From Modicisalibacter luteus DSM 23508 (GTDB lineage: Bacteria > Pseudomonadota > Gammaproteobacteria > Pseudomonadales > Halomonadaceae): DNA of 64,000 nt. Position 1 is the first letter of the stretch. Each line of letters opens with the position of its first letter. The stretch covers positions 62,001 to 126,000 of the forward strand of contig NZ_KB899998.1 in NCBI RefSeq assembly GCF_000378505.1, given 5' to 3'. The position numbers were made by a program, and so were the translations under genes. The notes under the pieces were generated by a model that saw nothing but the letters and a program-made list of their open reading frames with translations, was not told where the DNA came from and searched no databases. Below, piece by piece: positions 55,957-59,033 of the stretch.

Positions 55957-56666
55957 GCGCCTCGCCGATTCTGATCACCGGAGGTGCCCAGCGCCTGGGA
56001 CGTCACTGTGCCGAGCGCTTGGTCGACGATGGTCACGACGTCATCATCACCTACCGCCGTGAACGTGCCGAACTCGACGTGTTGCGCCAACGGGGGATTG
56101 TCACGCTGCGAGCGGATTTCTCCAGCGAGGCCGGTATCCTCGATTTCATCGACCACTTGAAATCGCAGATTCGCTCGCTACGTGCCATCGTGCACAATGC
56201 CAGCGACTGGGCGCCGGACTCGAGCGGCGAGGATGCCGGAATCAACTTCGAGCGCCTGTTCCGGGTGCATATGCAAGCCCCCTACCTGATCAACCTGCAT
56301 TGCCGTGAGTTGCTCAATGCCTGCAGCGAGCCCCAGCGCGACATTGTGCACATGACCGACTACGTGGCCGGCACGGGATCGAAGAAGCACGCTGCCTATG
56401 CCGCCACCAAGGCAGGCCTGGAAAACCTCACGCTGTCGTTCGCTGCGATGTTTGCGCCTGACATCCAGGTCAACGCCATCGCCCCGGCACTGATCATGCT
56501 CAACGAAGGTGATGACGAGGCTTACGCCGCCAAGGCGAGGGCCAAGTCGGCTATGGCGATGGTGCCCGGGCCGGGCGTGATCTACCAGAGCCTGCGCTAT
56601 CTGCTCGATAATCGTTATGTGACCGGCATTACCCTGCCTGTAGATGGTGGGCGCCACCTGCGCTGA
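55953..56666 (+). CDS. folM: dihydromonapterin reductase FolM
   Basis: The 237-residue short-chain dehydrogenase reduces dihydromonapterin (and weakly dihydrofolate) with NADPH. It has ILITGGAQRLG (cofactor), the NAS motif IVHNASDWAP, the catalytic YAATKAGLEN and a VTGITLPVDGGRHLR end, close to E. coli FolM. Its ATG overlaps the flavin reductase stop as ATGA, so it is the third gene of the ubiD unit. Confidence 0.9.
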   Translation: MSASPILITGGAQRLGRHCAERLVDDGHDVIITYRRERAELDVLRQRGIVTLRADFSSEAGILDFIDHLKSQIRSLRAIVHNASDWAPDSSGEDAGINFERLFRVHMQAPYLINLHCRELLNACSEPQRDIVHMTDYVAGTGSKKHAAYAATKAGLENLTLSFAAMFAPDIQVNAIAPALIMLNEGDDEAYAAKARAKSAMAMVPGPGVIYQSLRYLLDNRYVTGITLPVDGGRHLR

Positions 56667-56734
56667 GTCTGCGCTCGGTGTTGGTGTGCGCTAGGATGCA
56701 GTCATTCTTTCACGATTACGTTGGAGACAATGGC

Positions 56735-56863
56735 ATGGCTGAATACGACCCCAATTTCAAGGACACTAGCGGTTTCATGACGCTCTTTCTGGGACTGGTC
56801 GTGCTAGTCGGCATGAGTTGTCTGCCGGCGACCATCGTCTGGGTCAAATATTTCGGGCTGTAA
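56735..56863 (+). CDS. 42-residue single-span membrane protein
   Basis: The frame MAEYDPNFKDTSGF... encodes a short acidic N-terminus and one hydrophobic helix (about residues 14-37) ending KYFGL. GGAGAC sits eight bases before the ATG. I do not know the family. It follows folM by 68 bases and ends about 20 bases before the promoter of the aromatic leader region. A longer frame exists upstream, but it lacks a ribosome-binding site at its start. Confidence 0.65.
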   Translation: MAEYDPNFKDTSGFMTLFLGLVVLVGMSCLPATIVWVKYFGL

Positions 56864-56881
56864 CGTTGACCTGGGGCGGGG

Positions 56882-56909
56882 TTGCCAAACGGCATCATCC
56901 GTGTAGGAT
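56882..56909 (+). promoter_or_regulatory. sigma-70 promoter of the aromatic leader-aroF unit
   Basis: TTGCCA and TAGGAT are 16 bases apart. The predicted start is near 56916, giving a 45-base 5' UTR before the first leader peptide. It lies downstream of the 42-residue membrane gene and upstream of both leader peptides, the position expected of an attenuated operon. Confidence 0.6.
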
Positions 56910-56960
56910 GAAAACTACGCTGAGTGATACGCCCTTAGCACACTAAACTCGGAGACGACC

Positions 56961-57098
56961 ATGTCCGCCATTTCCGCCGCACACACAATCGTTGCCCAGC
57001 CTTCGCTGGTGGGTATGCGTGCGTGCCGTTGGGCAGGTTATGGCTATTGGTATTGGTTTAGTCGCGGTGCGCCCGGCGGTCCGGCCAAGATGGCCTGA
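56961..57098 (+). CDS. first aromatic leader peptide (45 residues)
   Basis: The frame begins MSAISAAHTIVAQPSLVGMR and then has Trp24, Tyr27, Tyr29, Trp30, Tyr31, Trp32, Phe33: seven aromatic residues in ten. It ends APGGPAKMA. GGAG lies six bases before the ATG. A peptide of this kind, directly followed by an intrinsic terminator and before an aromatic biosynthesis gene, is the standard form of an attenuator leader: ribosomes would stall there when charged tRNA-Trp, -Tyr or -Phe is scarce. The peptide itself needs no function. Confidence 0.82.
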   Translation: MSAISAAHTIVAQPSLVGMRACRWAGYGYWYWFSRGAPGGPAKMA

Positions 57099-57133
57099 GC
57101 CAAGAGGCGCACCCTGACCAGCAGGGTTGCCTC
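57066..57133 (+). promoter_or_regulatory. mutually exclusive RNA helices behind the first leader peptide
   Basis: Segment A (57066-57073, GGTGCGCC) is exactly complementary to bases inside segment B (57106-57113, GGCGCACC). Segment B (57104-57116) also pairs with segment C (57122-57133) as GAGGC/GCCTC plus CCCTG/CAGGG. A lies 7 to 25 bases after the aromatic codons, where a stalled ribosome could cover it. A:B and B:C cannot coexist, which is the switch logic of attenuators. Pairings were found by eye; energies were not computed. Confidence 0.6.
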
Positions 57134-57138
57134 CATTC

Positions 57139-57179
57139 AAAACCCCCGGTCGGCAACCCGATCGGGGGTTTTCGTTTAG
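57139..57179 (+). terminator. intrinsic terminator between the two leader peptides
   Basis: AAAACCCCCGGTC and GATCGGGGGTTTT form a 13-bp stem (one G-T) around the 8-base loop GGCAACCC, followed by TTTTCGTTT. The loop is perfectly complementary to GGGTTGCC (57124-57131), the 3' arm of the preceding hairpin. Termination here would stop RNA polymerase before the second leader and aroF. Confidence 0.88.
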
Positions 57180-57220
57180 TACCACAGCACGTTTCACGTT
57201 CTCGATAAGGAGCCAGGCAA

Positions 57221-57379
57221 ATGACCACCGCACCCGTCGTCCTCACCACGTATGGCAAGAACTATTACGGCTATGGCGAAGGGTATTGGCGATTTAGCGT
57301 CGCCCGGTCGGTCCAGTCAGCCGCCTCCGGCCGGGGCATTCTGGGTGGCACACGACAATCACGATGTCTTGATAAATAG
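57221..57379 (+). CDS. second aromatic leader peptide (52 residues)
   Basis: The frame begins MTTAPVVLTT and then has Tyr11, Tyr15, Tyr16, Tyr18, Tyr22, Trp23 and Phe25. AAGGAG is eight bases before the ATG. It ends 38 bases before aroF. It shares ordered sequence blocks with leader 1 (TATTGG, TTTAG, CGCCCGG, CGGTCC), so the two probably arose by duplication. There is no terminator after it, so any control must act on translation or on Rho. The Tyr bias fits the Tyr-type DAHP synthase downstream. Confidence 0.8.
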   Translation: MTTAPVVLTTYGKNYYGYGEGYWRFSVARSVQSAASGRGILGGTRQSRCLDK

Positions 57380-57413
57380 TGACGCTCGCTACGGTGAGCC
57401 AGCCAGGAAATGC
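57336..57413 (+). promoter_or_regulatory. possible anti-Shine-Dalgarno helix controlling aroF
   Basis: GCATTCTGGGTGGC (57336-57349, inside leader peptide 2) can pair with GCCAGCCAGGAAATGC (57398-57413), forming 13 base pairs with two single-base bulges and one mismatch. The second strand contains AGGAA, the aroF ribosome-binding site. Part of the first strand (57341-57346) could instead pair with GTCCAG (57311-57316). A ribosome stalled in the Tyr cluster or passing through would change which pairing forms. Found by eye only. Confidence 0.5.
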
Positions 57414-57417
57414 AACC

Positions 57418-58488
57418 ATGACTGCTTCATTGCCCCAGCTCGAACCCCTGCTCGACCCCACCCCCACCCGCCAGAACGAGAATATCCTGCCAAGCCCGGT
57501 CGAACTGCGCCGGCAGGTCCCGCTCGATGGCGAACTGCGGCAAACCATTGCCCAACATCGCCAAGCCATCCAGGCCATACTCGATGGTAAAGATGAGCGT
57601 CTGTTAGTGGTGGTCGGCCCCTGTTCCGTTCACGATCCGCGTGCCGCGCTGGAGTACGCGGAACGCTTGGCGGCCCTGTCCCGTCGCGTCGAGGATCGCC
57701 TGCTACTAGTGATGCGCGTCTATGTCGAGAAGCCGCGCACCACGGTGGGCTGGAAGGGACTGGCCTACGATCCGCATTTGGATGGTAGCGATGACATGGC
57801 TCATGGCCTGGCCCTGTCGCGTCGACTGATGCGCGATGTCGCGGCCCTGGGCCTGCCGGTCGCCACCGAGTTGCTTCAACCGATGGCGGCGGCCTACTTC
57901 GATGACCTGCTTGCCTGGGCGGCAATCGGGGCACGGACCACCGAGTCGCAGATCCATCGTGAGATGGCCAGTGGGCTGGAGGCGATCGTCGGTTTCAAGA
58001 ACGCCACGCATGGCGGGGTTGGGGTGGCCATCGACGCCATGCGCGCCGCCGCTCAGGGGCATCGCCACTTCGGGATGGATTTACATGGCCGGCCGGTGAT
58101 GCACGAGACGCAGGGCAATCCGCATACACATATCGTGCTGCGTGGCGGTGATGGCGGTCCCAACTACGATGCCGAGAGTGTCGTCGACTGTCGGCGGCAA
58201 CTGGAAGGGGCCGGCCTGCGGCCCAACCTGATGGTCGACTGCAGCCATGCCAACTCGCGCAAGGATCATCGGCGCCAGAGCGAGGTCCTGCTCGATGTGC
58301 TGGCGCAGCGTCTGGCCGGTGAGACCGCGCTCATCGGTGTCATGCTTGAGAGTCATCTCAACGAAGGCAAGCAGGCGCTCGACCTGGAGGCGCTTCGTTA
58401 CGGTGTCTCGGTAACTGATGCCTGTCTGGGATGGGAGACCACCGAACATCTGCTCGATCATGCGGCGGCCCGTCTGCGCGATCAATAA
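57418..58488 (+). CDS. aroF: 3-deoxy-7-phosphoheptulonate (DAHP) synthase, AroF-like
   Basis: The 356-residue class I enzyme joins phosphoenolpyruvate and erythrose 4-phosphate, the first step of aromatic synthesis. It has LLVVVGPCSVHDP, KPRTTVGWKGL, IGARTTESQIHRE and GFKNATHGG. Length and stretches such as MRAAAQ-HR, TQGNP-HIVLRGG and AGLRPNLMVDCSHANS resemble E. coli AroF, the Tyr-sensitive isozyme, more than AroG or AroH (comparison from memory). The ATG with AGGAA eight bases upstream was chosen over a GTG overlapping the leader stop. Confidence 0.92.
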   Translation: MTASLPQLEPLLDPTPTRQNENILPSPVELRRQVPLDGELRQTIAQHRQAIQAILDGKDERLLVVVGPCSVHDPRAALEYAERLAALSRRVEDRLLLVMRVYVEKPRTTVGWKGLAYDPHLDGSDDMAHGLALSRRLMRDVAALGLPVATELLQPMAAAYFDDLLAWAAIGARTTESQIHREMASGLEAIVGFKNATHGGVGVAIDAMRAAAQGHRHFGMDLHGRPVMHETQGNPHTHIVLRGGDGGPNYDAESVVDCRRQLEGAGLRPNLMVDCSHANSRKDHRRQSEVLLDVLAQRLAGETALIGVMLESHLNEGKQALDLEALRYGVSVTDACLGWETTEHLLDHAAARLRDQ

Positions 58489-58517
58489 TACTAGCCGTTC
58501 AGGAGGAACTGCCCGGC

Positions 58518-59033
58518 ATGCGTTTTCGTTTCGAGACCCACGATCCTGCACAGTACCGCCGCAAGGCGAAGTTCATGGCGGTGATCGTGGCCGGGCAGTT
58601 CATTATCTTTGGGTTGCTGTTTTCCCAGTTGCTGACGTCCCGCTTCGGCTCTAGCCTGGGCATGAACGCGCTTGGCGTGCTGCTCGGGCTATTGGCGACC
58701 AGCGTCGTCGTCGCCGTGCTGCGCGATCGGCCTGGGATGCGTGACCAGCGCTACGCTTGGGAGCTCAAACGTCAACTTTCCCGGGTCAGTGCCCATCTGC
58801 CGGCCTTGCGCCAGGCGGGGCTTGAGCAACATGATCCGCAGGCGCTGGATTTGCTGGCGTTCTACCATCAGGGCATGCAACAACTCGCTGACCTTAACGG
58901 CAGAACGTTCGACGATGATAGCGAGCGCTTGGCTGAGCGTCTGCGGGTACGTCAGGCTCGCGAGGAATGCCAGCTTCCCGAAGAGGTCGATGATGTCGAC
59001 CTCAAAACACTGGAGGCATTTCGCCCAGCTTAG
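58518..59033 (+). CDS. DUF3087 family membrane protein
   Basis: The 171-residue protein has two hydrophobic helices (about residues 17-38 and 45-65) and a cytoplasmic helical C-terminal domain (70-171) with LKRQLSRVSAHLPALRQAG. It matches DUF3087 in its start (MRFRFETHDPAQYRRKAKF) and spacing. Function unknown. It follows aroF by 29 bases behind AGGAGGA, so it may share the attenuated transcript. Confidence 0.78.
   Translation: MRFRFETHDPAQYRRKAKFMAVIVAGQFIIFGLLFSQLLTSRFGSSLGMNALGVLLGLLATSVVVAVLRDRPGMRDQRYAWELKRQLSRVSAHLPALRQAGLEQHDPQALDLLAFYHQGMQQLADLNGRTFDDDSERLAERLRVRQAREECQLPEEVDDVDLKTLEAFRPA

Follow-up and report, generated by a model that had tools for sequence, protein, structure and literature searches.

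In a stretch of 64,000 nucleotides from Modicisalibacter luteus DSM 23508 (Halomonadaceae; RefSeq assembly GCF_000378505.1, contig NZ_KB899998.1, positions 62,001 to 126,000 of the forward strand; hereafter the window), an initial annotation made from the letters alone had described two short open reading frames (ORFs) rich in aromatic codons, here called leader 1 and leader 2, in tandem before an aroF-like gene for 3-deoxy-D-arabino-heptulosonate 7-phosphate (DAHP) synthase. We confirm that these tandem aromatic leaders are real, and comparison and folding support leader 1 as a ribosome-mediated transcription attenuator. Our favoured account, which as a whole we hold to be likely, is that leader 1 attenuates aroF transcription in this manner and that leader 2 is a second translated, Tyr-biased leader that adds control past the terminator, most likely via a programmed ribosome pause. 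The comparisons and calculations described below demonstrate conservation of the leaders, helices in the leader RNA, a calculated switch in leader 1 of the window and selection on the coding sequence of leader 2. If our account is true, it would explain RNA-level control of the entry step of aromatic biosynthesis in Pseudomonas and Halomonadaceae and would provide a conserved, amino-acid-linked tandem leader comparable to that of Salmonella mgtCBR.

Conservation of the two leaders

Both frames, their ribosome-binding sites (GGAG before leader 1, AAGGAG before leader 2), their aromatic residues (W24, Y27, Y29, W30, Y31, W32 and F33 in leader 1; Y11, Y15, Y16, Y18, Y22, W23 and F25 in leader 2) and the terminator between them lie where the initial annotation had placed them, and the gene downstream encodes, as it had said, an AroF-like DAHP synthase; this enzyme is of class I, matches the PRK12755 and aroFGH models, and its nearest Protein Data Bank (PDB) chains are named as Tyr-sensitive. 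That the leaders are chance aromatic-rich ORFs was rejected: among the 933 ORFs of at least 20 amino acids in the six frames of the window, leader 1 alone has at least six aromatics in ten residues, leaders 1 and 2 alone have at least seven in 15, and no other ORF is comparable.

We compared the window with the best 80 of 592 confirmed aroF matches, each taken with 2.5 kb flanks, a set tilted to close relatives that comprises 25 Halomonadaceae, two other Gammaproteobacteria and for the remainder Pseudomonas-type genomes (81 loci with the window). Leader 1, sought as an aromatic ORF with its end near a Tyr-Trp-Phe-like triplet, is present in 81 of 81 loci, with Tyr-Phe-Met replacing the triplet in two of them (L013 and L018). 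It is also present in all 22 aroF-clade genomes (best DAHP synthase at least 59% identical) of a 195-genome sample of the order, where it was located in 18 through a match to the Rfam family P15 (RF00627) and in four by reading (in G157 by eye). Its codon usage is skewed, with TTT at 77% and TAT at 88% versus 5% and 20% in aroF genes. The motif TGGCG[AC]TTTA, by which leader 2 was sought, occurs in 76 of the 80 relatives (75 with the exact TGGCGATTTA, and L067 with TGGCGCTTTA), and among 16 order-level genomes that were read, 11 carry TGGCGATTTA and G143 carries CTGCGATTTA. The leaders differ in their mean numbers of Tyr, Phe and Trp residues, which are 2.32, 2.54 and 1.69 in leader 1 (n=81) and 3.62, 1.55 and 1.06 in leader 2 (n=77).

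The initial annotation had staked its proposal on conservation in relatives, and leader frames and aromatic codons are indeed conserved, with compensatory changes in the helices described below. Of the two-stage control that it had envisaged, a conserved series of two leaders with different aromatic bias holds, whereas for leader 2 as a second attenuation stage no terminator and no ribosome-binding-site switch was found. As a separate observation, TTTA closes the aromatic run in both leaders of the window (57057-57060 and 57293-57296) and does so in 76 of 81 leader-1 sequences, the amino acid that follows being variable.

The initial annotation knew of no described tandem arrangement of this kind, but a partial precedent exists in Salmonella mgtCBR, for which Lee and Groisman describe the tandem attenuators mgtM and mgtP, which sense ATP and proline and whose hairpins are unlike intrinsic terminators (PMC3641672). 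mgtCBR resembles the aroF arrangement in having two short ORFs in one leader, one of them rich in the codons of a single amino acid; the aroF leaders differ from it in being aromatic both times and in the strong terminator that follows leader 1, and independent action of the two leaders was shown for mgtCBR and not for the aroF tandem. The body text of Naville and Gautheret (2010), searched by terms, makes no mention of aroF, DAHP or P15, and a survey of open-licence literature by titles and abstract openings yielded no aroF leader and no tandem attenuator for aroF.

Ribosome position and helix choice in leader 1

The E. coli trp, phe and his operons are controlled by ribosome-mediated transcription attenuators. 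Like these, leader 1 combines end-product codons with alternating helices, and its intrinsic terminator precedes a gene that belongs to the pathway concerned; unlike them, its RNA can form four alternating helices (1:2, 2:3, 3:4' and the terminator), of which 1:2 would favour readthrough, its target is a DAHP synthase and its codons specify all three aromatic amino acids. Judged by its sequence, leader 1 would qualify as an attenuator, with clustered end-product codons in a predicted ORF, a terminator, mutually exclusive helices and pairing that, by calculation for the window, is decided by ribosome position. The terminator is a 15-bp hairpin with a T-rich tail, and the folded 147-nt region has a z of -4.9 relative to shuffles. 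A ribosome slowed at the Tyr, Trp and Phe codons would leave segment 1 exposed to pair with segment 2, and segment 3, freed by the formation of 1:2, would capture the terminator loop (3:4') such that RNA polymerase continues. Conversely, a ribosome past the last aromatic codon would mask segment 1, and 2:3 and the terminator would form, with transcription stopping at about 57172-57178. Both the stalling of ribosomes in cells and the direction of control we infer.

First, the helices were assessed by comparison in 27 loci (the window, 24 relatives, L092 and L093), using segments hand-picked by eye, a choice that can bias toward pairing. Pairing in helix 1:2 reaches 98.6%, with 19 double-change cells, where none of 1000 shuffles exceeded 94.9% and 12; in helix 3:4' it reaches 95.4%, with 13 such cells, where none exceeded 93.1% and 10. 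L092 and L093 have quite different segment letters and retain both helices, and in all 27 loci segment 1 begins 9 or 10 nt downstream of the first base of TTTA.

Second, we calculated how the position of the ribosome edge governs capture of the terminator loop, modelling a nascent RNA that ends directly before the terminator 3' arm. In the window, the loop is captured with the edge at or before 57066, is not captured for edges between 57070 and 57102, and is captured once more when the edge has reached 57110, the RNA flipping from antiterminator to 2:3 between edges 57066 and 57070; segments 1 and 3 were here placed one base off, which affects the scaling of the values only. The calculation was extended to the 72 loci whose terminator was located automatically (9 of 81 were excluded when the terminator finder failed, and L010 is probably mis-assigned). 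Capture across these loci is 0.98-1.0 for edges between 3 nt ahead of and 15 nt beyond the Trp codon, and 0.32-0.39 for edges 21 to 33 nt beyond it, the means running from 1.00 at Trp +12 through 0.98 at +15 and 0.80 at +18 to 0.34 at +21, and reaching at least 0.89 from +36 onwards. The step between +12 and +24 averages 0.67 versus 0.01 in 216 shuffled controls, and exceeds 0.5 in 53 of 72 loci versus 5% of the controls. With the hand-placed segments of the 27 loci, 3:4' has a mean of 0.93 with the edge at segment 1, where it is at least 0.70 in every locus, and of 0.49 eight nt further on. Within the model, a ribosome on the aromatic codons gives a robust readthrough state; the terminated state emerges clearly for the window and for roughly half of the window's family.

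Several observations weigh against this view of leader 1. Helix 2:3 shows no covariation, the 8-nt frame counted in the 27 loci being paired at 70.8%, which is shuffle level, with no double change; this helix rests on folding because it is offset from the counted frame. No clear step is seen in 19 of the 72 loci, 10 of which belong to the 20 Halomonadaceae in the test, and the drop in 3:4' calculated from hand-placed segments exceeds 0.5 in just 12 of 27 loci. Moreover, the outcome for a ribosome on the stop codon hinges on a 3-nt difference in footprint (0.36 for an edge at stop +12 and 0.90 for one at stop +15, counted from the first base of the stop codon), a sensitivity that the window shows too (0.23 at 57106, 0.65 at 57110).

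Leader 2 and its proposed control past the terminator

Selection on the coding sequence of leader 2 was measured in 31 distinct Pseudomonas sequences of equal length as the ratio of nonsynonymous to synonymous changes (pN/pS). Before the motif, pN/pS is 0.39 in frame versus 1.34 and 0.74 in the other frames; the signal is weak in the core (0.69 versus 1.19 and 1.06) and absent from the tail (0.81 versus 0.79 and 0.53). In the long class of leader-2 sequences, CGA and TTT are invariant in 55 of 55, and CGA makes up 42% of leader-2 Arg codons versus 3.5% in aroF; the length is fixed in 31 of 36 Pseudomonas sequences of this class. Its gap-free 21-codon core carries a helix, S1, and possibly a second, S2, a potential H-type pseudoknot. 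For S1 and S2 together, 95.1% of cells pair and there are 14 double-change cells, all in S1 (0 of 500 shuffles); sliding the partners by +3 columns gives 21 double-change cells but 49.5% pairing. A model of the leader-2 element matched 8 of the 195 order genomes, 7 of them upstream of aroF. Near the end of leader 2 we also observed a second in-frame CGA (57362-57364, plus strand), mostly as CGAACAC in Pseudomonas and as CGATGT or CGAAGT in Halomonadaceae, followed by a TAG stop in the aligned Pseudomonas groups.

We propose that leader 2 would act past the terminator, on read-through transcripts, as a second translated and Tyr-biased leader. Beyond its aromatic codons comes a near-invariant Trp-CGA-UUU-A site, directly ahead of an RNA hairpin or pseudoknot, and site and structure together would impose a programmed ribosome pause and with it Tyr-weighted control of aroF, a step that would be neither an intrinsic terminator nor simple concealment of the ribosome-binding site. 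The most likely role of leader 2 is a programmed pause, its input weighted to Tyr, at a step after the terminator, and we favour it because a terminator, site hiding and fusion are all unsupported and the simple geometry for Rho has the wrong sign; the whole of this mode of action we infer. The absence of an intrinsic terminator after leader 2 is seen in 56600-58700, where the sole terminator-like site precedes leader 2. Fusion of leader 2 to aroF by frameshifting or readthrough was rejected, as aroF occurs in all three frames relative to leader 2. The near-invariant CGA-UUU-A site poses a clean, testable puzzle of codon-level pausing. More tentatively, as something possible rather than probable, leader 2 may represent a new type of regulatory ORF, in which Tyr-rich codons run to a near-invariant Trp-CGA-UUU-A pause site, and the rare Arg codon, the Phe codon and a hairpin or pseudoknot that begins 11 nt past the first U of UUUA jointly form a switch timed by the ribosome that needs neither a terminator nor site hiding; placed after leader 1, it would confer two-stage, three-amino-acid control on aroF across Pseudomonas and Halomonadaceae.

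The pause model has to be weighed against several observations. The relatives that lack the leader-2 motif (L010, L011, L012 and L016) are all Salinicola, and the motif is also missing from G040, G183, G121 and G115 among the 16 order-level genomes. In 23 of the 24 distinct cores from Pseudomonas, S1 is interrupted by a mismatch at one position, S2 is without any double change, and a short class of leader 2 (Pseudomonas citronellolis, Stutzerimonas, Halopseudomonas and others) keeps the core without S1 and S2. Two further results, both on the aroF ribosome-binding site, are given with the erm-type alternative below.

That leader 2 instead governs Rho-dependent termination before aroF is doubtful. 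The absence of an intrinsic terminator after leader 2 is compatible with it, and the tail of leader 2 has a C/G ratio of 2.02 and 1.88 in two Pseudomonas groups versus 1.14 and 1.06 in aroF, and of 1.39 versus 1.01 in Halomonadaceae. However, the C excess is modest in the window's own family, and the simple geometry has the wrong sign, as a stalled ribosome would expose the tail and thereby favour Rho. For mgtCBR, Lee and Groisman raised Rho-dependent termination as a possibility by analogy with mgtA (PMC3641672).

We regard as unlikely that leader 2 works by erm-type translational attenuation, in which a stalled ribosome would open a structure that hides the aroF ribosome-binding site. In ermB, translational attenuation with two leader peptides is induced by erythromycin (PMC8274638); the two arrangements are alike in having two leader peptides ahead of one gene, and differ in the erythromycin induction of ermB and in that no site-hiding switch was detected in the aroF tandem. 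Pointing towards such a mechanism, in 18 Halomonadaceae sequences a ribosome edge past S1 leaves the 3' arm of S1 (mostly CCUCCGACCG) paired chiefly with the region of the aroF start (91 pairing calls at edge W+27 versus 36 at W+12). Pseudomonas has a stable hairpin between the leader-2 stop and the ribosome-binding site (-18.4 and -19.9 kcal/mol, n=33 and 15; base-shuffled copies -11.8 and -10.2 kcal/mol); just 2 Halomonadaceae had a gap long enough for this test. But in three groups (20, 36 and 18 sequences, nested structures) calculated access to the aroF ribosome-binding site stays the same wherever the ribosome stands, and leader-2 cores do not coevolve with the site, their own core:site duplexes being no stronger than swapped ones (688, 1999 and 1475 of 2000 permutations at least as strong). 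Simple hiding of the site by leader 2 was rejected on these two grounds.

TnaC is an arrest peptide that senses an amino acid directly. By analogy, leader 2 might sense an aromatic amino acid, with arrest at Trp-Arg-Phe lowering aroF in times of plenty, which seems quite improbable: all 55 long-class leaders do encode Trp-Arg-Phe after Tyr-rich, coding-selected residues, but in these 55 neither CGA nor TTT varies even in its nucleotides, and G143 has lost the Trp and kept CGATTTA, so that the codons seem more important than the residues.

It is very improbable, finally, that only leader 1 matters, leader 2 being a mere relic or an upstream ORF with a passive role. Leader 1 stands alone in eight aroF loci or genomes, namely the four Salinicola loci (in the three displayed, aroF directly follows the leader-1 terminator), G115 and three genomes of family f40. 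Elsewhere, however, leader 2 has the near-invariant motif, fixed lengths and compensatory pairs reported above.

P15, the locus and its neighbours

P15 spans the control codons, the stop codon and the terminator of leader 1; in contrast to a leader, it is catalogued as a Pseudomonas small-RNA (sRNA) gene and not as a cis-regulatory leader. The full-length match in the window stays under the family's gathering score (Table 1), which counts against the assignment. The cut-off was reached in 12 of 18 loci searched, with 88-126 bits, and missed by five Halomonadaceae loci and by the paralogue locus L002. All 18 matches in the 195 order genomes are in sense and lie 41 to 329 nt before an aroF-clade protein match, and because they all precede this gene, P15 is best read as the aroF attenuator. 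In a class sample of 276 genomes, P15 matched seven, three of which are genomes already met above; in G345 and G438, from another family, the match precedes a gene that by eye resembles a DAHP synthase, and by eye no DAHP synthase was found in the stretches fetched around the weak class-level matches of G206 and G461. The second ORF before the DAHP-synthase-like gene in L102 (G345, outside the order) is Arg-rich by eye (CGATTTCGA) and has few aromatic codons.

P15 was reportedly described by Livny in 2006. That it is a trans-acting small RNA or a riboswitch and not a leader, as suggested by its Rfam listing as a Pseudomonas sRNA and by a 2008 paper that considers a riboswitch from gene neighbourhood (PMC2527527), is highly improbable given the sense orientation and position of all 18 matches and an aromatic ORF that runs into the P15 helices. 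If our account of leader 1 is true, the 'sRNA' family P15 becomes a cis-acting attenuator; released leader-1 RNA could in addition act in trans.

The promoter posited by the initial annotation upstream of leader 1 fared less evenly. Its hexamers are present; among the 16 of 81 loci displayed, L004 and L006 have identical hexamers and spacing ahead of leader 1, and L009 has TTGTCA-16-TAGGAT there, but a single such site is at about chance frequency (1 found versus 0.8 expected), and promoter scores over the 81 loci are modestly above shuffles (9 of 12 matches in 13 of 81 loci versus 3%).

Table 1. Features of the aroF leader region, in window coordinates
Feature	Position	Strand	Basis
Promoter-like site TTGCCA-16-TAGGAT	56882-56909	+	Consensus scan; same site before leader 1 in L004 and L006
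Leader ORF 1, 45 codons; control codons Tyr-Trp-Tyr-Trp-Phe at 57045-57059	56961-57098	+	ORF list; 81 of 81 loci; codon bias
P15 (Rfam RF00627), full-length match, 40.6 bits (gathering score 70)	57035-57168	+	Rfam search
Putative attenuator segment 1 (GGTGCGCC), 12 nt past first base of last Trp codon	57066-57073	+	Pairs with segment 2
Segment 2 (GGCGCACC), partner of segment 1, or of segment 3 within hairpin 57104-57133	57106-57113	+	Folding, comparison
Segment 3 (GGGTTGCC), partner of segment 2 or of terminator loop (antiterminator)	57124-57131	+	Folding, comparison
Intrinsic terminator hairpin, T-rich tail to about 57178	57139-57172	+	Terminator scan, folding
Segment 4' (GGCAACCC), loop of the terminator with its flanks; pairs with segment 3 in the antiterminator	57152-57159	+	Compensatory changes
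Leader ORF 2, 52 codons, Tyr-biased	57221-57379	+	ORF list, comparison, coding selection
Leader-2 core TGGCGATTTAGC (Trp-Arg-Phe-Ser)	57287-57298	+	Conservation
Leader-2 helix S1, 57304-57311 with 57327-57334	57304-57334	+	Compensatory changes in three pairs
Leader-2 helix S2 of possible pseudoknot, 57320-57325 with 57344-57349	57320-57349	+	99.2% paired, no double change
UACG-loop hairpin after leader-2 stop, before aroF ribosome-binding site	57384-57399	+	Folding
aroF-like class I DAHP synthase	57418-58488	+	Profile models, PDB similarity

The genome encodes a second DAHP synthase, 51% identical to the aroF product. We rejected the presence of the same leaders there: P15 matches the genome once only and not at this paralogue, and the 703 nt up to its start hold no ORF with more than four aromatics in 15 residues. 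On the minus strand, the leader-1 terminator also reads as a hairpin with a T run and a weak Rfam match (57131-57200), and is possibly bidirectional. The gene after aroF (58518-59030, plus strand) matches DUF3087. Upstream of leader 1, a 42-codon ORF (56735-56863, plus strand), without a family match above curated cut-offs, resembles a small single-pass membrane protein, and L092 and L093 have, read by eye, a similar ORF ahead of their leader 1.

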